IMG/VR virus record: IMGVR_UViG_3300045256_000143
Location: 1 to 30,756 of that record
From: a virus
DNA length: 30,756 bases
Reading direction: 5' to 3' (one strand)
The notes beneath the pieces were generated by a model. It saw nothing but the letters and a program-made list of their open reading frames with translations. It searched no databases and had not been told where the DNA came from. Below, one piece after another: positions 3,696 to 23,098 of this stretch (the first letter of the stretch is position 1; the number at the start of each line of letters is the position of its first letter). Both the position numbers and the translations under genes were made by a program.

Positions 3696-4067
3696 TTGGC
3701 ACTGATCCTGGCACTGATCGGAATCGGTGTTTTCGCCGCCAACACAAAGGGGTACCAAGTACCCGCGAACGGCTTGGCACTGATGCGTTTAGTATCCGTG
3801 CCAGGAATCTCACAGTGGTTACAAAGACTTATGGCGTTTTTGGCACGGGTACCAGGTTTTCGGCCCATTAAGGGCTCTGGCGCGTGCGCGTGCGCGTGCG
3901 CGTGCGCGTGCGCGTGCGCGTGCGCGTGCGCACATGAAATGTCATAGTTGGTCAAAAATCGGTGCTCAGTGCCAAAAATCGCGTAAGTATCTGTTTTTCA
4001 AACGTAATTCTTGGCACGGATACTAAAACTTTGGCACGGATACTAAAGATCAGTGCCAAAAATCGCG
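3696..4067. repeat. Repeat family B, core TTGGCACTGA
   Basis: A perfect tandem pair differing only in the first base lies at 3696-3707 and 3708-3719; a third copy is at 3774-3784. Two inverted copies at 3966-3983 and 4050-4067 share the identical 18-mer TCAGTGCCAAAAATCGCG. The family shares TGGCAC with family A, so one protein may read both with different affinity. Confidence 0.75.
3880..3936. repeat. Tandem CGCGTG hexamer, 57-bp alternating purine-pyrimidine tract
   Basis: Eight perfect copies of CGCGTG run from 3881 to 3928. With the flanks, strict purine/pyrimidine alternation holds from 3880 to 3936. Such tracts favour Z-DNA under negative supercoiling and also vary in copy number by slippage. 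It sits between the inverted and direct iteron copies. Whether it acts in replication or is only a microsatellite cannot be told from sequence. Confidence 0.85.
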
Positions 4068-4156
4068 CAAGCGGTTGTATTTACACGGTAATTCCTGGCA
4101 CGGGTACTAAAGCGGTATTATGTTACCTCACGAGCGAGAAAATGCCGTGCGAAATT

Positions 4157-5182: not shown

Positions 5183-5378
5183 GGTCTGTCTTCCTTTTGA
5201 GAGGATCACCAGCGAGCGGCGCTGGTGCCGGGTGCTCAAAACACGGACAGAGTCGTGCGGCCTTCTTTCCCTTGCGGGTATTGTATCCGGCCACACCCGG
5301 CGCATGAGCGCAGGGCACAAAAATAGCCGCGTGCGGGCGGCTACCGCTCTGTCTTGGTGTTTTGAAGCACCAAGTAAA

Positions 5379-6675: not shown

Positions 6676-6978
6676 CTACTCCAATTCGTTCGCGGCGTAG
6701 AAGTCGCGCAATTCGTTCGCAATTGCGGCCTGTTCGGCGCGCGATAGAGATTCGAATGCCGCAAGGTCCGGTCGGTCGCCAAACGTCCGTGCGATCAGCA
6801 CGGCGCTTGCGCGCTTGCGCAGGTAGGATCGCAACGCAAGGCCGGACGGTATGTGTGAAACGGTCCACGTTTTACCGCTCGGAATCGTGCGGTGCACGCA
6901 AAGGCATCCGTGCGTTACAGCGGCGACCGGAATCGGTTTGTCGGCGTTCATTTTCGGTTTGAATTTAATGCGTTTCAT
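6676..6978 (-). CDS. Hypothetical protein following ardC
   Basis: This 100-residue product is not recognised. It starts with a lysine-rich stretch (MKRIKFKPKMNADK), has a likely beta-rich core (GKTWTVSHIPSGLALRSYL) and a helical end with LSRAEQAAIANELRDFYA. The SHIPSG-x-A pattern recurs in small proteins of conjugative plasmids and phages. ATG 6978 overlaps the ardC stop (ATGA), so it is translationally coupled to ArdC and made in similar amounts. This suggests that the two act together or at the same stage. Confidence 0.75.
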   Translation of the reverse strand: MKRIKFKPKMNADKPIPVAAVTHGCLCVHRTIPSGKTWTVSHIPSGLALRSYLRKRASAVLIARTFGDRPDLAAFESLSRAEQAAIANELRDFYAANELE

Positions 6979-7949
6979 CGGTCGGGCCCTCCCGTTCGAG
7001 CGGCGAGCGCGGCGGAGTATTCGTCCGCTGCGCTTTCGTCGTCTTCGGTTTCGCTCGCCCCGTGCAGGTACGCGGCGGCCTTTTCGGCAGCCGCCGCGGC
7101 CGAGAAAAGAGCTTTCGGGTGGTCTTCGAAAAGCTTGATCCAGGACGCAATATAGCTCGCGTGGTCCGCCCGCTCATGGTTCGGTATTTCCAGATCGGCG
7201 CAGAGATACGCAGCGCCCAGTTCGGCGGTTAGTTCTTCGAAGGCGTAGTTTGCACTGCCGAATCGAGTCATGGGCTTGAAACGATCAAGGCGTGACGCGT
7301 GGCCCGTCCAGTGCGTCAGCTCGTGCAGCAGTGTTCCGTAGTACGCAGAAGGCGTTTTGAACGATACGCGCGCGGGCATGCACACTTGGTCAAAGGCGGG
7401 GATGTAGTACGCGCGCCCGTCTGTGCTGTCGCCGATGTGCGCGCCGGTTGCGCGGGCGAAAGCTTCCGCCGCTTCATAGCGTTCGAATTCGCTCGGCAGC
7501 TTCGGCGCGGCGTTGGCGATGTAGCGTTCCGGCAGGTTGTCGCATTGCTCGGCGTTGAAAACGGTGTAGGCGCGCATGAAGGGAACGGTTTTCGTTTCGC
7601 CCGTGCTGGCGTCGCGCACCTTGGAGAATTTCCAGAAGCTGACGGGCGTCCCTTTTTCGCCCTTGCGCACACTGCCCTTATCCGCCAGCGCTTGGCGGAA
7701 GGTGAGCCAGTAGCGGCTCTTGTAGCCCTTTTGACGGGCGCGCAGCATGAGCCAGAACACATTCGCACCCCGATACGGTTTGCCGGTTGAGCGCAGCGGG
7801 CGCAGGAAGCCGCGCAGCGAATCGGCGGCGTTGATGGCAGTTCCTGCATCCCATTTCGGCGACCACGGGCGGGCGCCGTTGCGCAATTCGTCGAGAATAG
7901 CGGCGGTAATCTCTTGATAGGCTTCGGTTTTGGTTTGGCTCTTTGCCAT
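6975..7949 (-). CDS. ardC: ArdC-family antirestriction protein with zincin-like metallopeptidase domain
   Basis: The 324-residue product begins MAKSQTKTEAYQEITAAILD. Its N-terminal half carries the ssDNA-binding domain typical of ArdC and TraC-primase-type proteins (GTAINAADSLRGFLRPL is unusual, then YRGANVFWLMLRARQKGY and KGEKGTPVSFWK). The C-terminal half has the metallopeptidase motif HELTHWTGH at about 209-217, with the third zinc ligand expected in AFEELTAELGAAYL about 25 residues later. Known ArdC proteins bind incoming single-stranded DNA and protect it from restriction and related defences. ATG 7949 is chosen over the longer frame (8024) because AGAGGATCGCAAACC lies directly before it and the longer form would begin inside the promoter. 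It heads the minus operon from promoter P1. The RGFLRPLRSTGKPY linker seems to carry a short insertion relative to the usual form. Confidence 0.9.
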   Translation of the reverse strand: MAKSQTKTEAYQEITAAILDELRNGARPWSPKWDAGTAINAADSLRGFLRPLRSTGKPYRGANVFWLMLRARQKGYKSRYWLTFRQALADKGSVRKGEKGTPVSFWKFSKVRDASTGETKTVPFMRAYTVFNAEQCDNLPERYIANAAPKLPSEFERYEAAEAFARATGAHIGDSTDGRAYYIPAFDQVCMPARVSFKTPSAYYGTLLHELTHWTGHASRLDRFKPMTRFGSANYAFEELTAELGAAYLCADLEIPNHERADHASYIASWIKLFEDHPKALFSAAAAAEKAAAYLHGASETEDDESAADEYSAALAARTGGPDR

Positions 7950-8002
7950 GGTTTGCGATCCTCTGGTAGGTTGGGTGTTGCGTTGGCCCGCAACAGGTGT
8001 CG

Positions 8003-8031
8003 ACGTTAGCGGGGTACTAAACAACAGTCAA
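8003..8031 (-). promoter_or_regulatory. Promoter P1 of the ardC operon, with operator-like element
   Basis: On the minus strand, TTGACT (8031-8026) is followed after 17 bp by a weak TAACGT (8008-8003). The spacer and the first bases of the -10 box hold AGTACCCCGCTAA (8018-8006), the 13-mer also present in P2. On the plus strand the element extends to GGGTACTAAA, which is the end of iteron 4096-4111. Confidence 0.5.
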
Positions 8032-11249: not shown

Positions 11250-11488
11250 TGCCGCCGTCGAATGACGAATTGCACACGCGCGTTTCCGTGCACGAAGCGG
11301 TTTGCGCCGAGCGTTACAAAGCCATCGAAGCGTCGATTACCGACCTGCAGGCGCAGATCAAGACGTCCGCCGAAGGTATGCAGGCACAGATCAACGCGAT
11401 CCAGTCGACCATGAAGCGTGTCGCCTGGGGCGTCGCCGGCGCGTTCGGCGGGATCGCGATCGAGCTCGCGAAAAGCTTTTTGAGCTGA
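11246..11488 (+). CDS. Holin-like small membrane protein with N-terminal coiled coil
   Basis: The 80-residue product has a soluble, heptad-like first part (SVHEAVCAERYKAIEASITD and AQIKTSAEGMQAQINAI), then one hydrophobic helix near the end, about residues 58-78 (RVAWGVAGAFGGIAIELAKS). This plan resembles XhlA/haemolysin-type accessory holin proteins, which sit in the inner membrane and help release endolysin. No endolysin is seen in the window, so the lysis role is inferred from topology alone. It begins ATGATG at 11246, overlapping the previous stop. Confidence 0.6.
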   Translation: MMPPSNDELHTRVSVHEAVCAERYKAIEASITDLQAQIKTSAEGMQAQINAIQSTMKRVAWGVAGAFGGIAIELAKSFLS

Positions 11489-11493
11489 CGCCC

Positions 11494-13083
11494 GTGTCCG
11501 CGCTTCTCGCCGATACGATGCAATTGGAGCGGCTGCGCGAGCAGCACCGCGACATTCGTCGTCAGATCCGCTTTCGGGAAGCGCACGACGATCTGCTGAC
11601 CTTTACCGAAGTGACGATGCCGGACCCCGAGGATCCCGATGATCCTCTGAAAACCGATTATCGCTCGTCGCTCTTTCACCGTTCGCTGGCAAACGCCCTG
11701 CAGCGCGTCGAACAGCGGCTCATTCCGTATCTCGCCATCTGCTGCCCGCCGCGCCACGGCAAGAGTGAGCTGTCTTCGCGCCGCCTGCCCGCCTGGTTCG
11801 CCGGCCGTCATCCGAGTTGGCACGTGATGATGGGCACGTACAACGAAACTTTCGCCGCCGACTTCGGCCGCGACGTGCGCAACATCATGCAGTCGGACCG
11901 CTACGGTCGCATTTTCCCCCGCGCGCGCCTGCAGAAAGGATCCGCGGCGTCGGACCGCATGCAAACGACGCTTGGCGGCATGCTGGCTTTCGTCGGTCGC
12001 GGCGGCTCGATCACCGGCCGCGGCGCGCATTTGATGATCGTCGACGACCCGCTGAAAAACAGCGAGGAAGCCGACAGCCCGGGTATCCGTGACGATCTGT
12101 GGCGGTGGTTCATCCGCGACGTGCTTTCGCGGCGCATGAACGATCGCTGCCCGGTGATTATCATTCAGACGCGGTGGCACGAGGACGATTTGGTGGGCCG
12201 GATCACCGATCCGAAAAACCCCCATTACCGTGCGGATTTCGCCAAGCAGTGGCACGTCATCAACATTCCCGCGCTGGCGGAAGCCAACGACCCGTTGGGG
12301 CGGCAGCCGGGCGAGCCGCTATGGCCCGAGCAGTTTGGACGTCAGTATTTCCTCGAATACAAGGCCGCGGATCCGCGCGGTTTTTCGGCGCTCTATCAGC
12401 AGCGGCCGAGCCCGGAGGAAGGGACGCATTTCAAGCAGGAAATGTTCGTCGAATACATGCCGCATCAGAAGCCGGCGAACCTTCGCTTGTATGTCGGCAG
12501 CGATCACGCGCTCGGCACCAAGCAGCAGAACGACCGGACGGCGATCGTGCTCGGCGGGCTCGACGAAGACGGCGTGTTGTGGCTCGACGAAAATTGCTGG
12601 TGGCAGCGCGCGCAGACGCACCACGTCGTCGAGCAAATGCTTTCGTTCCAGAAGCAGCACCACCCGATGCTGTGGTGGACCGAAGACGATCACATCACGC
12701 GCGGCATGGGGCCGTTTCTGCTGAAACGCATGCAGGAAACGAGCACCTTCATCAGCTTGAAAACGCTGACCGCGCACGCCGACCCCATGAAAAAGGTTTC
12801 GCCGTTTCATGCGCGCATGGCGATGGGCATGGTCCGGTGGCCGGCGTGGGCGCCGTGGTACCACGAGGCGCGCACCGAATTGCTCAATTTCCCGCAGGGC
12901 ACGCATGACGACTTCGTGATGGGCTGCGCTGCGCTCGGCCGCGGGCTCGCCGAAATGGTGTCGGCTGCGCCCCCGCCGACGAAACAGCGCGGCCCGGTGA
13001 CGGGTACGCTCGGCTGGGTGAAGGCGGCGTCCGAACAGCGCAAAAAGTTCGCTGAACGATTCTCGTTGCGTGGAGGCTTTTGA
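11494..13083 (+). CDS. terL: Terminase large subunit (packaging ATPase and nuclease)
   Basis: The 529-residue protein powers DNA packaging and cuts the concatemer. Walker A CCPPRHGKSEL is at about 83-93, Walker B LMIVDDP near 180, and the coupling motif IIQTRWHEDDL at about 223-233. The C-terminal RNase H-like nuclease has YVGSDHALG near 333, WWTEDDH near 393 and HDDFVMG near 471, supplying the acidic metal ligands. This is the Terminase_6 type. GTG 11494 is taken as the start, 6 nt after the previous stop; ATG 11518 is an alternative. The Shine-Dalgarno is weak for either. Its TGA overlaps the portal ATG as TGATG. Packaging type (headful or cohesive ends) cannot be read from sequence alone. 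Confidence 0.93.
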   Translation: MSALLADTMQLERLREQHRDIRRQIRFREAHDDLLTFTEVTMPDPEDPDDPLKTDYRSSLFHRSLANALQRVEQRLIPYLAICCPPRHGKSELSSRRLPAWFAGRHPSWHVMMGTYNETFAADFGRDVRNIMQSDRYGRIFPRARLQKGSAASDRMQTTLGGMLAFVGRGGSITGRGAHLMIVDDPLKNSEEADSPGIRDDLWRWFIRDVLSRRMNDRCPVIIIQTRWHEDDLVGRITDPKNPHYRADFAKQWHVINIPALAEANDPLGRQPGEPLWPEQFGRQYFLEYKAADPRGFSALYQQRPSPEEGTHFKQEMFVEYMPHQKPANLRLYVGSDHALGTKQQNDRTAIVLGGLDEDGVLWLDENCWWQRAQTHHVVEQMLSFQKQHHPMLWWTEDDHITRGMGPFLLKRMQETSTFISLKTLTAHADPMKKVSPFHARMAMGMVRWPAWAPWYHEARTELLNFPQGTHDDFVMGCAALGRGLAEMVSAAPPPTKQRGPVTGTLGWVKAASEQRKKFAERFSLRGGF

Positions 13084-15257
13084 TGGACGGTCTAACCGAA
13101 ACGCCCATGCAGCCTGCGGCAGAGCCGAGCGCGACCGCGATTCAACGCGAGCCTGTCGACAACGGCGAGTCCGACGCGAAGCTGGTCGAGGAAATCATCG
13201 CTGGCGTGAAGCGCGCGAAAAAGAAATGGGCGGACGATTTCGCCGCCATGCGCGACGACATGCGTTTCGCTCTTGGGCTGCAGTGGGACGGCCAGACCGA
13301 ATTGCGCAAGGAAAAGCGCGTCGTCATCAACCTGGTGCAGCGCCATCTGCAGCAGCAGACGGCCGCGCTCTACGCCAAGAACCCGAAGGCCGCGGCTTAC
13401 CGGCGGAAGCGTCTCGACTTCGCGATTTGGGATGGCACGCCCGAGTCCGTCATGGCCGCGCAGCAGGACGCCGCCGTGAAAGCCCCCGCGTATGACGCCG
13501 CGGTGCAGGCCGCGACGTTGCAAGGTACGCCGGCGCCTGCGCCGCCCGCGTCGCTTGCGCTCTTGCAGGATCTGCAGCAAGGCATGCTGTACCGGAAGCA
13601 GATCGCGGGGCTCGCGCAGACGCTCGAAATCCTTTTCGAGTACAGCATCGGCGAACAGCAGTCGCCCGCGTTCAAGCGGCGCGCGAAACGGCTTGTGCGC
13701 CGGACGAAGACCTGCGGCGTTGGATATATCGAGATCGACTATCAGCGCGCGTTCGGGAAGCGCCCCGATACGGTCGCCAAGCTCGACGACTACACGCAGC
13801 GCCTGGCGAAGATCGAGCAGCTGCGCGCCGATATTGCCGATGGCGAAGTCGATCCGGCCGCTTCGCAGGTGGCCGAGCTGCAGGCCGCGATTACGGCGTT
13901 GCAGGCGGAACCGGAAATCGTTTTGCGCGAAGGGCTCGTGTTCGATTTCCCGAAGGCGACGTCGGTTATCCCGGACGAATTTTGCACATCGCTCGACGGG
14001 TTCGAAGGATGCAAGCGCGTCGCCAAAGAAATTCTTATGACGCCCGATGACGTCAAGGCGACCTATGGCGCCGACGTCGGAAAGAATTTTCAGAAGCACT
14101 CGATTTCCCAGGCCGGTCAGATGGAAATGCGTTTCGAAAACGAAACGCCTCGGTACGGCGATATGGTGTGCGTGTGGGAAGTCTATGACCGTTCGACGGG
14201 CCTGAAATACGTCGTCGCGGACGGCCACAAAAATTTTCTGAAAGCGCCGGCCGCGCCGGAAGTCACGGTCGAAGGGCTTGTCCCGATTTTCGCGTTGATG
14301 TTCAACGAGCTCGAAACGGAAGCCGGCGTCATTTCGCCGTTCCCGCCGAGTGACGTCACCCTGCTTCGCTCGCTGCAGAAGGAATTCAACCGCACGCGCG
14401 AATCGCTTCGTCAGCACCGGTACGCCTCCCGCCCGCTGTACGGCGCGGCGCCGGGCAATTTCGACGAAGGCGAACAGCACAACATGGCGACGCACGCCGC
14501 GCACGACGTCATTGTGCTGAAAACGCTCGCCGGCGGCGGCAAAGTCGACGACATACTGCAGCAGATCAAGAAAGCCCCGATCGACCCGAACGTGTACGAA
14601 GTGCAGGGCCTGTACGACGACATGAATCGGACGGTCGGCACGCAGGAAGCCAACCTCGGCGGCACGTCGAACGCCACCGCGACCGAAAGTTCGATCGCCG
14701 AGTCCAGCCGCATGGCGTCGCTGTCGTCCAATGTCGACGACCTCGACGATTGTTTCTCCGCGGTCTTCCGTGCAGCGGGGCAGGTGCTTCTGGCCAATAT
14801 GCCCCGCGAGCAGGTGGTGAAGATCGTCGGGCCTGGCGCGGTTTGGGTGGAGCTCTCGCGGCAGGAAATCGCGGAAGAAGTGTTCCTGCAGGTTGAAGCC
14901 GGGTCTTCCGGGCGCCCGAGCAAAGCGCAAGACCTTGCGAATTTCGAGCGCATCGCGCCGTTCATGCTGCAGATGCCGGGCGTCAACCCGTCCTGGCTGA
15001 CGCGCTACATCATCAAGATCCTCGACGATCGCGTGGATCCGGTCGACGCCATCTTGGAAGGCATGCCGTCGATAACGCAGCTGAACGCCGCAAAGCAGCC
15101 CGGTACGGGCGACCCCGCGACGGATCCGAACGCCCAAGGCGAGAAGGGCGGCGACAACCAGAAAAAGTCGCAGCAGACGGACAACAATCAGCGTGCCGGC
15201 TTCCCGGCGGGCAACGTGATCCGCTACGACGCGCGCGGCAACAGGATGGCCGCATGA
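13083..15257 (+). CDS. Portal protein
   Basis: The 724-residue product is the dodecameric ring at the capsid vertex through which DNA enters and leaves. Typical portal blocks are visible: AKKKWADDFAAMRDDMRFALG, VVINLVQRHLQQQTAALYAKNPK, a long stretch with a helical insertion (AKIEQLRADIADGEVDPAAS), NRTRESLRQHRYASRPLYG, and MNRTVGTQEANLGGTSNATAT, the region that usually lines the channel. The C-terminal tail is glutamine- and asparagine-rich. Its length is in the podovirus portal range. ATG 13083 overlaps the terL stop (TGATG). Position directly after terL confirms the role. Confidence 0.9.
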   Translation: MDGLTETPMQPAAEPSATAIQREPVDNGESDAKLVEEIIAGVKRAKKKWADDFAAMRDDMRFALGLQWDGQTELRKEKRVVINLVQRHLQQQTAALYAKNPKAAAYRRKRLDFAIWDGTPESVMAAQQDAAVKAPAYDAAVQAATLQGTPAPAPPASLALLQDLQQGMLYRKQIAGLAQTLEILFEYSIGEQQSPAFKRRAKRLVRRTKTCGVGYIEIDYQRAFGKRPDTVAKLDDYTQRLAKIEQLRADIADGEVDPAASQVAELQAAITALQAEPEIVLREGLVFDFPKATSVIPDEFCTSLDGFEGCKRVAKEILMTPDDVKATYGADVGKNFQKHSISQAGQMEMRFENETPRYGDMVCVWEVYDRSTGLKYVVADGHKNFLKAPAAPEVTVEGLVPIFALMFNELETEAGVISPFPPSDVTLLRSLQKEFNRTRESLRQHRYASRPLYGAAPGNFDEGEQHNMATHAAHDVIVLKTLAGGGKVDDILQQIKKAPIDPNVYEVQGLYDDMNRTVGTQEANLGGTSNATATESSIAESSRMASLSSNVDDLDDCFSAVFRAAGQVLLANMPREQVVKIVGPGAVWVELSRQEIAEEVFLQVEAGSSGRPSKAQDLANFERIAPFMLQMPGVNPSWLTRYIIKILDDRVDPVDAILEGMPSITQLNAAKQPGTGDPATDPNAQGEKGGDNQKKSQQTDNNQRAGFPAGNVIRYDARGNRMAA

Positions 15258-19146: not shown

Positions 19147-19172
19147 GCAGCGTCGTGAGACGCCGCAGCCCT
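19147..19172 (+). repeat. 26-nt hairpin leader, copy 1 (before scaffold)
   Basis: A 26-nt sequence starting GCAGCGTCGTGAGACGCCGC is identical at 20305-20330. It folds as GCAGCGTC-GTGA-GACGCCGC with a GTGA tetraloop and one mismatch. In both places it ends exactly 16 nt before the ATG, of scaffold and of capsid. This fits a translation control or RNA processing element. Confidence 0.8.
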
Positions 19173-19188
19173 CGGATGGAGACGCTAA

Positions 19189-20283
19189 ATGAGCGGCGCA
19201 GCAGCCGCCGGGGAATCGTCAACCCCGGATAACTCGGCAGATACGGGCGCATCGGCAGCGGTGGAAACCGCCGCCGGTACGCTTTCGACGGACGCTAACA
19301 CCGCGCCATCGTCCGACGCGGGTACTGACGCAAAGCAGGCCGAAACGCAGCAAAGCACGCTCGATATCGTGCGGAGCGTTGTCGCGAAAGGCCCGGAGAA
19401 ATCGTCAGGCTCCGATACCGCGAAACCAGGTTCGACGGACCCGGCCGCCGCTTCCAAGCCCGAAGGGCAAGGCGCAGCGGGCGACCAGGATCCGCCTCCG
19501 TTTCACGAACACCCGCGCTGGAAAGCCGTTCTCAAAGAACGCGACCAGGCGACCGAAAAAGCGACTCAGCTTTCGGTCGAAGTCGAACAGCTTCGCCCGG
19601 CCGCTGCGCAAATGCAGCGTATTGACAAGTTCATGGTCGACAACGGCCTGACGTCGGACGATGTGGTCGAAGGCTATCGAGTGATGGCGCTGATCCGAAA
19701 CGATCCGGCGCGCGCTCGGGAAGCACTGCAGGCGTTGATCGACGATATCGACGCGGCCACCGGCGAAACGCTGCCGGCGGACCTGCAGCAGAAAGTCGAA
19801 GCCGGTGTTTTGAACGAGGACGACGCGCGCGAGATTTCACGAGCTCGCGCCGCGGCCAACGCCGCAACGCAGCGCGCCACTGAAACCGTCCAGCAGGTTC
19901 AGGCGCGCGAGCAGGCGACGGCCGTTGCGAATTTGCGCCGCGCCATCGACGCCGAAATCGGCGCGTGGGAAGCGCAGATCGCGCCCAAGGATCTGGATTA
20001 CGTCGCGGTCAAGAAACCGTTTGTCCTCGCCGAAGTCACGCGGATCGTGACGCAGGAACGAGGCGGCAAGCCGCCCGCATCTGCGCAGGAAGCGCGAGAT
20101 ATTTGGGTGAAGGCGTACGACGCCGTGACCGAGAAGCTGCGCGGGTTGAAACCCGCAGCCCCCGCTCCCGCCCGTCAAGCTCCTGCACCAACGCGAACGG
20201 CAAACGCGACCGCAGCCGCTCCCGAAAAGGCGCGCTCGACGCTCGACATTGTGAAGCAAGTCGCGAGCCAGCGCCGCCGGTAG
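19189..20283 (+). CDS. Scaffold protein
   Basis: The 364-residue product is charged and largely helical, as expected of a podovirus scaffold that shapes the procapsid and then leaves. Disordered, alanine/serine-rich ends flank a core with HPRWKAVLKERDQATEKATQ, a coiled coil about 118-145 and a second helical block (TQRATETVQQVQAREQATAV). The motif STLDIV occurs near both ends (56-61 and 350-355), followed by basic residues at the C-terminus (SQRRR), a usual capsid-contact tail. ATG 19189 has GGATGGAGACGCTAA before it. Position directly before the capsid gene supports the call. Confidence 0.82.
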   Translation: MSGAAAAGESSTPDNSADTGASAAVETAAGTLSTDANTAPSSDAGTDAKQAETQQSTLDIVRSVVAKGPEKSSGSDTAKPGSTDPAAASKPEGQGAAGDQDPPPFHEHPRWKAVLKERDQATEKATQLSVEVEQLRPAAAQMQRIDKFMVDNGLTSDDVVEGYRVMALIRNDPARAREALQALIDDIDAATGETLPADLQQKVEAGVLNEDDAREISRARAAANAATQRATETVQQVQAREQATAVANLRRAIDAEIGAWEAQIAPKDLDYVAVKKPFVLAEVTRIVTQERGGKPPASAQEARDIWVKAYDAVTEKLRGLKPAAPAPARQAPAPTRTANATAAAPEKARSTLDIVKQVASQRRR

Positions 20284-20304
20284 GGAACGGCTTCAAACCG
20301 CAAC

Positions 20305-20330
20305 GCAGCGTCGTGAGACGCCGCAGCCCT
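20305..20330 (+). repeat. 26-nt hairpin leader, copy 2 (before capsid)
   Basis: This is identical to 19147-19172, with the same 16-nt spacing to the start codon. Sequence between hairpin and ATG differs (TTGAAGGACTCCTGTC here), so only the hairpin is conserved. Confidence 0.8.
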
Positions 20331-20346
20331 TTGAAGGACTCCTGTC

Positions 20347-21396
20347 ATGCCGTTTACCGCGCAAGAGCTCGACAACATCATGAATGCAAGCCTCGATCAC
20401 TTCATTCGAGGCAAGCCGGTTCTACAGTCGATTCAGGACCGCCCCACGCTCGAAACTTTCGTCCGCAACCAGAAGAAATTCGGCGGCGGTCGAGGCGAAA
20501 TCAAAAAGAACGTGAAAGGCGAATACACGACGCAGTTCGCCGGTTACACGCACGACGATTCGGTCGGGTACAGCAACCCGGCGAACATGAAGCAATTCAC
20601 CCAGCGCTGGTTCGAATTGCACGCCGGTATCCAGGTCACGTTCACCGAGCTTAAGCAGAACGGGATCACCGTCGTCGATTCGATGGCCGGCGAAGAAACC
20701 GCCGAAGCCAGCGACCGCGAAATGTTCGAATTGTCGAACATTCTCGACGACAAGTTGGAAGACATGCGCGAAGGCGCGCAGCGCTCGTTCAACAACATCT
20801 TCTGGATGGACGGTACGCAGTCGGCGAAAGTCTTCGGCGGCATCATGTCGTTGATTACCGACAACCCGACGACGGGCGTCGTCGAAGGGCTCGACCGATC
20901 GGTGCATACCTGGTGGCGCAACCGCGCGCTTACCGGCGGCAACCGCATCACCGCCAACACGTCGTTGCAGACGCTGACCAAGACCCTGCGGTCGGAAGTG
21001 CGTCAGCTGCGCCGGTTCGGCGGTCGGCCGAGCGTGTGGGTCGCCGGTTCGCGCTTCATCGAACGCCTTGAAGACGAAGTGCATGAAAAGGGCACTTACA
21101 CGCAGGAAGGCTTCACCAACAAGGGCAAGACCGATATCGGCATGGCCGTTATCAGCATGAAGGGCGTCGGCGACTGCCTGTACGACCCGACGCTGGACGA
21201 CCTCGGCCGCTCGAACTTCGCCTACTTCTTCGACCCGCGCCACCTCTACCTGATGGCGATGGACGGGGAAGACATGAAGCAGCACAACCCCGCGCGCCCG
21301 CCCGAGAAATACGTGCTCTACCGCGGCCTGACCTACACCGGGTGCTTGGTGGCGGACAAGATGAACGTGCACGGCGTCTACGAAGTGACTCCGTAA
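20347..21396 (+). CDS. Major capsid protein
   Basis: The 349-residue protein forms the shell. The blocks LDNIMNASLDHFIRGKPVLQ, FTQRWFELHAGIQVTFTELK, FNNIFWMDGTQSAKVFGGIM and HTWWRNRALTGGNRITANTS are those of HK97-fold capsid proteins of podoviruses. WVAGSRFIERLEDEVHEKGT and the C-terminal YVLYRGLTYTGCLVADKMN also fit. Its length is typical, without a protease domain or an obvious cleavable prodomain, consistent with a separate scaffold. ATG 20347 has GAAGGACTCCTGTC before it. It is set apart from its neighbours by non-coding spacers, as befits the most abundant product. Confidence 0.9.
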   Translation: MPFTAQELDNIMNASLDHFIRGKPVLQSIQDRPTLETFVRNQKKFGGGRGEIKKNVKGEYTTQFAGYTHDDSVGYSNPANMKQFTQRWFELHAGIQVTFTELKQNGITVVDSMAGEETAEASDREMFELSNILDDKLEDMREGAQRSFNNIFWMDGTQSAKVFGGIMSLITDNPTTGVVEGLDRSVHTWWRNRALTGGNRITANTSLQTLTKTLRSEVRQLRRFGGRPSVWVAGSRFIERLEDEVHEKGTYTQEGFTNKGKTDIGMAVISMKGVGDCLYDPTLDDLGRSNFAYFFDPRHLYLMAMDGEDMKQHNPARPPEKYVLYRGLTYTGCLVADKMNVHGVYEVTP

Positions 21397-23092: not shown

Positions 23093-23098
23093 TTGCGC

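Follow-up and report, generated by a model that had tools for sequence, protein, structure and literature searches.

The window, by which we mean the whole 30,756-nucleotide stretch analyzed here, is the IMG/VR virus record IMGVR_UViG_3300045256_000143, and its late region is podovirus-like (Table 1). The major capsid gene was identified by its match to a major head protein PHROG, and its product matches the capsid of a Microcystis phage at 42.5%. The ORF ahead of it had no family match in PHROGs or Pfam, but it adjoins the capsid gene on the 5' side and is homologous to the ORF found at the same place in relatives (28% in contig L365 and 33% in contig L380), which makes it the probable scaffold gene. 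Other parts of the window hold a match to a known small RNA family, an ArdC-like gene that probably encodes an anti-restriction protein, and a group of repeats near a GCGCGT tandem repeat (around 3880-3927) that could be a replication or regulatory site.

Table 1. Features of the window, with positions counted from its first nucleotide
Feature	Position	Strand	Remarks
Repeats	3788-3846, 3966-4027, 4050-4111		Two direct 62-nt copies (81%); one related inverted copy, about 59 nt
sRNA-Xcc1 (RF02221), Rfam match	5219-5301	-	63.6 bits, E 1.8e-9; early region
ArdC-like protein	6975-8024	-	ArdcN and MPTase-PolyVal
Terminase	11302-13083		Late region
Portal-like	13080-15257		Late region
Copy 1, hairpin	19147-19166	+	GC-A-GCGUC-GUGA-GACGC-C-GC; 8-position stem, A.C mismatch at position 6; GUGA loop at 19155-19158; model R1 44.3 bits
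Copy 1, linker and Shine-Dalgarno region	19167-19181	+	AGCCC linker, then GGAUGGAG; family consensus UCCC-GAUGGAG
Probable scaffold, gene behind copy 1	19189-20283	+	364 aa; position and homologues in L365 and L380
Copy 2, hairpin	20305-20324	+	Identical to copy 1; GUGA loop at 20313-20316; model R1 45.5 bits
Copy 2, linker and Shine-Dalgarno region	20325-20338	+	AGCCC linker, then GAAGGA
Major capsid protein, gene behind copy 2	20347-21396	+	349 aa; phrog_9953, 2.4e-43
SU10-type adaptor	at 23093		Late region

The same 26-mer, GCAGCGTCGTGAGACGCCGCAGCCCT, stands in front of both the scaffold and the capsid gene. Its two copies (19147-19172 and 20305-20330) are identical, and each ends 16 nt before the ATG, as the original prediction had stated. 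A repeat search of the window extended the match to 34 nt at 91% identity, and a 25-mer with up to three mismatches was found only at these two places, against an expectation of 0.00 in shuffled sequence; the plain core GCGTCGTGAGACGC with three mismatches was uninformative in this G+C-rich window. The hairpin with a GUGA cap that had been proposed for the 26-mer was also recovered by folding: ((.(((((....))))).)), at -11.7 kcal/mol and with a z score of -3.1. We rejected an intrinsic terminator, which would be a G+C-rich hairpin with a U run behind it, as the hairpin here runs into AGCCCU and a Shine-Dalgarno sequence.

The repeat is not confined to this phage: a second contig (L001), whose capsid belongs to a different family, has the same 24-mer ahead of its capsid gene and a variant of it ahead of one other gene. 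It is instead an example of a more widespread element. The layout recurs in many IMG/VR phage contigs that are unrelated to one another: a stem with a conserved mismatch (A.C or C.C) is capped by a loop and followed by the UCCC linker, by a Shine-Dalgarno sequence of the GAUGGAG type and by the start codon. Scanning viral contigs for GCGTCGTGAGRCGCNGC gave at least 119 stretches, and 60 of 99 distinct sites were closely followed by an ORF that has a Shine-Dalgarno sequence of the GGA type; the list also contains chance matches in coding sequence, which we set aside. We defined the family by a model, R1, consisting of an 8-position stem, a GNGA, GUGAY or GGAY loop, UCCC, a GAUGGA-type Shine-Dalgarno sequence and a start codon. 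Both window copies fit this family, with the next best place in the window scoring 11.5 bits.

Scanning and covariation both speak for the stem, and because the alignment used for covariation was partly selected for pairing, the stronger evidence is a scan in which the stem was left unspecified (GTGANNNNNCGC...TCCC...GATGGAG). Stems of at least 4 pairs were present in 81 of 83 non-redundant matches located before an ORF, compared to 1 of 10 matches without an ORF. In the alignment, 7 of the 8 stem pairs showed changes on both sides, and the covariation score was 0.486, whereas shuffles gave 0.183 (0 of 500 reached the observed value) and slid registers gave 0.05-0.11. G-U pairs are kept, and the stem sequence is free while the loop and the mismatch are conserved. 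Two loop classes could be distinguished, one with a GUGA loop and an A.C or C.C mismatch at position 6, and the other with a GUGAY loop and C.C at position 5. Nearly all copies keep a mismatch at position 5 or 6, and in just 5 of 175 are all 8 positions of the stem paired.

The loop is similarly restricted. When the stem was fixed and the loop left free, the 30 loops retrieved were GTGA (14), GGAT (6), GGAC (4), GAGA (4) and GCGA (2), with no others. A scan by geometry, which accepted any loop of 3-6 nt across 1.1 Mb of carrier genomes, returned recurrent loops that were mostly members of this set or triloop readings of the pentaloops, alongside scattered single loops; in the reversed control, none of the 20 matches had a family loop. 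A CsrA/RsmA site was considered and rejected, in that most loops, including both window copies (GUGA), have no GGA and the GGAY loops are a minority.

Downstream of the hairpin, the tail also recurs where it was not asked for. Linkers retrieved with no tail specified contained CCC in 51 of 60 cases, compared to 40% in shuffles, and the commonest Shine-Dalgarno sequence among them was AGAUGGAG. Long linkers hold a self-contained hairpin, often with a similar loop, and mostly leave about 12 unpaired nt, as do short linkers; therefore, the distance in space between the leader hairpin and the Shine-Dalgarno sequence appears to be kept. Tandem versions of the leader, in which the first hairpin adjoins a second one whose loop is GTGA or GCGA and whose stem differs but is paired, were seen at eight loci (L034, L036, L062, L074, L105, L150, L153 and L210).

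What follows the element is mostly a protein that is made in large numbers. Among 137 non-redundant downstream proteins, the commonest were major head proteins of several unrelated families (Phage_capsid, 24; P22 coat, 8; Phage_capsid_3, 6), tail sheath, tail tube or major tail, scaffold and cement proteins, and the genes, which also encode decoration proteins, are mutually unrelated. Model R1 had a match in 29 of 30 records, with 1-4 matches per record, the weakest of which are possibly due to chance. In one myovirus-like phage (G019), the genes with a copy in front encode a structural protein, the capsid, the sheath and another virion protein, and the geometry scan found an additional GGAU-looped copy in it. 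A second carrier (G027) has copies before the capsid, a small protein and a major tail protein, and a third (G003) before a capsid, a protein without an assigned function and a tail-fibre-like protein.

We also asked how the element is distributed among phages that share the window's capsid. A search with a capsid octapeptide gave no relatives, although a profile search did retrieve them. None of 80 capsid relatives (44-63% identity) had the element before the capsid gene, and two, L365 (1859-1893) and L380 (1851-1886), had it before the homologous scaffold gene and not before their own capsid genes. The cultured relatives RHph_N65 and Mae-Yong1326-1 are without it. The original prediction had been made to depend on whether relatives that share the gene order conserve the structure, and the outcome is mixed: the element is absent at the capsid gene and present at the scaffold gene in these two phages, while many unrelated phages have it. 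Given that these relatives lack the element at the capsid gene and two of them have it at the scaffold, its gain and loss do not follow the capsid lineage, and given that the closest capsid relatives do without it, capsid expression does not generally depend on it. The scaffold site of L380 is informative about structure, as its stem, ACGAU/AUCGU, corresponds to GCGUC/GACGC in the window while the GUGA loop and the GAUGGAGACGCUAAAUG tail are shared, and this is evidently a compensatory change at an orthologous site. Between this change, the pairing in the free-stem scan, the covariation and the restricted loops, the earlier proposal that selection maintains an RNA hairpin here is strongly supported.

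Cultured phages and bacterial genomes yielded few copies. Five blastn queries made from the element consensus found no site in approximately 50,000 isolate phage records; two had no match and three had weak, short ones (best E 0.3). Model R1, applied to bacterial genomes under strict filters by which weak matches are lost, matched 5 of 385 alphaproteobacterial genomes, 1 of 398 from Pseudomonadota and 0 of 297 from Acidobacteriota. Two of the six alphaproteobacterial matches (L432 and L435) were chance-like, lying within coding sequence. At another (L431), the element precedes a small gene followed by apparent HK97-type capsid, protease and portal genes, an arrangement that looks prophage-like when the sequence is read by eye. 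A scan of named bacterial contigs gave 7 matches, of which one, L130 in a named MAG, is a clear member and the other six were judged by their context to be chance or uncertain. Finally, one carrier phage encodes GcrA (PF07750), an alphaproteobacterial regulator. Because of the one clear prophage-like locus, the MAG match and this gene, Alphaproteobacteria are likely to be the hosts of at least part of the carriers. Three acetic acid bacteria (Acetobacteraceae; L127, L128 and L131) have an AAAGGCGGCGTCGTGAGACGCCGCC hairpin 23 nt before an ATG; it is fully paired, has no UCCC-GAUGGAG and is probably unrelated to the family.

How might such an element act? Its orientation is fixed to the gene, and its position is fixed relative to the Shine-Dalgarno sequence and the start codon. 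No conserved promoter was found upstream, where no position 5' of the stem carried more than 0.32 bits of information, and a phage late-promoter element was rejected for want of conserved upstream sequence at a fixed distance. Since there is no such promoter and the stop of the upstream gene lies at a median distance of 40 nt from the element, we infer that it acts within the transcript rather than as DNA. No gene family was present in more than 12 of 24 carrier records (ORFs of at least 60 aa, BLASTP), and in the same comparison we found no phage RNA-binding protein common to the carriers, although a small one could have escaped. As no gene common to all carriers was detected, a reader supplied by the host is likelier than one supplied by the phage. 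We therefore lean, with somewhat better than even confidence, toward a family of cis-acting, structured RNA leaders in uncultured tailed phages, to which both window copies belong, located between cistrons on the 5' side of the ribosome binding sites of high-copy virion genes and read by a host factor. That factor could be the ribosome or a protein associated with it, or else the mRNA-decay machinery, and it would raise or time the translation and the stability of the tagged cistron within the late polycistronic message. The element probably controls the output of heavily made virion proteins. A role as an insulator that keeps the Shine-Dalgarno sequence open is unsupported, as that sequence is predicted to be slightly less accessible than in control genes (0.29 versus 0.38).

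A host-read leader is not the only way to account for these observations. The hairpin could instead mark, or survive, an endonuclease cut and then protect the 5' end of a high-copy cistron, in the way of the hairpins between cistrons of bacterial operons. Its place between cistrons, with a short distance to the upstream stop and no promoter signature, would suit such a role, as would the stable stem with its conserved mismatch and the high-copy cistrons behind it. However, a decay barrier needs neither a strict position relative to the Shine-Dalgarno sequence and start codon nor a conserved UCCC-GAUGGAG tail, and the identity of the loop would require a specific nuclease, so that we regard RNase processing as unlikely. 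It is also possible, if slightly more doubtful, that the leader is a translational timing switch, in which pairing between the UCCC linker and the GGA keeps the Shine-Dalgarno sequence closed until, late in infection, a factor binds the GNGA/GGAY hairpin and thereby opens that sequence. The excess of CCC in linkers, the below-control accessibility, the self-contained hairpins inserted between UCCC and GGA, and the pairing of CC with GG of the Shine-Dalgarno sequence by RNAalifold all point in that direction, but these CC:GG pairs never covary and are hence unproven, the helix would be only 2-3 bp, and no common phage gene emerged from the 24 carriers as a candidate for the late factor.

The remaining explanations are much less probable. 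An autoregulatory operator bound by a virion protein (scaffold or capsid), in the manner of the RNA-phage coat operators, had been among the original suggestions, and two identical copies before scaffold and capsid would be expected of it. Yet many capsid, sheath, tube and decoration genes that are unrelated to one another follow the element, often several of them in the same genome, and the window's capsid relatives lack it before their capsid genes; because unrelated proteins follow it, it is not a private autoregulatory site, and an operator linked to one protein family is strongly disfavored. A DNA-level element (a late promoter, a protein site or a recombination boundary) that is palindromic by chance would explain occurrence at gene boundaries in unrelated phages, but not the fixed orientation, the retained G-U pairs, a free stem sequence beside a conserved loop and mismatch, or a tail fixed to the start codon, and we give it very little credence. 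We think just as little of a mimic of the tip of 16S rRNA helix 36 that would recruit the ribosomal protein normally bound there. An alphaproteobacterial genome (G373) contains TGTCGTGAGATGTTGGGTTAAGTCCCGC exactly, in what we take to be the h36-h37 part of its 16S rRNA, and this stretch shares GUCGUGAGA with the window copies and has UCCC later on. The resemblance of the window loop and flanks is nevertheless a weak lead, because other copies differ, having GGAY, GAGA, GCGA or GUGAY loops and different stems, and because the spacing is not the same.

Hairpins in phage leaders are themselves familiar. The MS2/R17 coat operator and the T4 gene 32 leader are likewise small hairpins with a conserved loop near the ribosome binding site of a structural or late gene, but each is bound by one phage protein and regulates one or few genes, whereas the leader here precedes unrelated virion genes in many phages and combines a freely covarying stem with a GNGA/GGAY loop and a fixed UCCC-GAUGGAG tail. 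The lambdoid boxB has a short stem and a GNRA-like tetra- or pentaloop; its pentaloop is recognized by shape, and it forms part of the nut sites for antitermination, which have a boxA beside the hairpin and act with an N-type antiterminator of the phage, without being tied to start codons. We found no N-like gene common to the 24 carriers, a comparison in which small N-like peptides could be missed. Stabilizing intercistronic hairpins such as those of Rhodobacter puf also favor high-copy products within operons, although they are not one family of sequence and loop and do not stand at a fixed distance from the start codon. Rfam 15, whose families include cis-regulatory motifs derived from phages and metagenomes, gave no match at either window copy or at the element in L148, L142, L183, L195, L080 and L240 (E up to 1), and the available portions of the open literature, including PMC2864571, yielded no description of the element. 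A leader hairpin is of a known kind, but as far as can be told there is no earlier description of a single covarying family that unrelated high-copy virion genes have in common across many phages.

Differences in output between neighboring late genes of double-stranded DNA phages are poorly explained outside a few models, and a covarying tag makes the question testable. In viral contigs that lack annotation, the leader signature also offers a means of predicting which genes encode capsid, sheath and tube proteins, and in alphaproteobacterial hosts the leader itself may prove useful as an expression part. More tentatively, we suggest that it is a portable RNA module that marks high-copy virion cistrons, is read by a conserved host factor, possibly the ribosome, and was acquired independently by podo-, sipho- and myovirus-like phages. 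If this is true, there would be a shared post-transcriptional code for late genes in phages whose hosts are missing from isolate collections.
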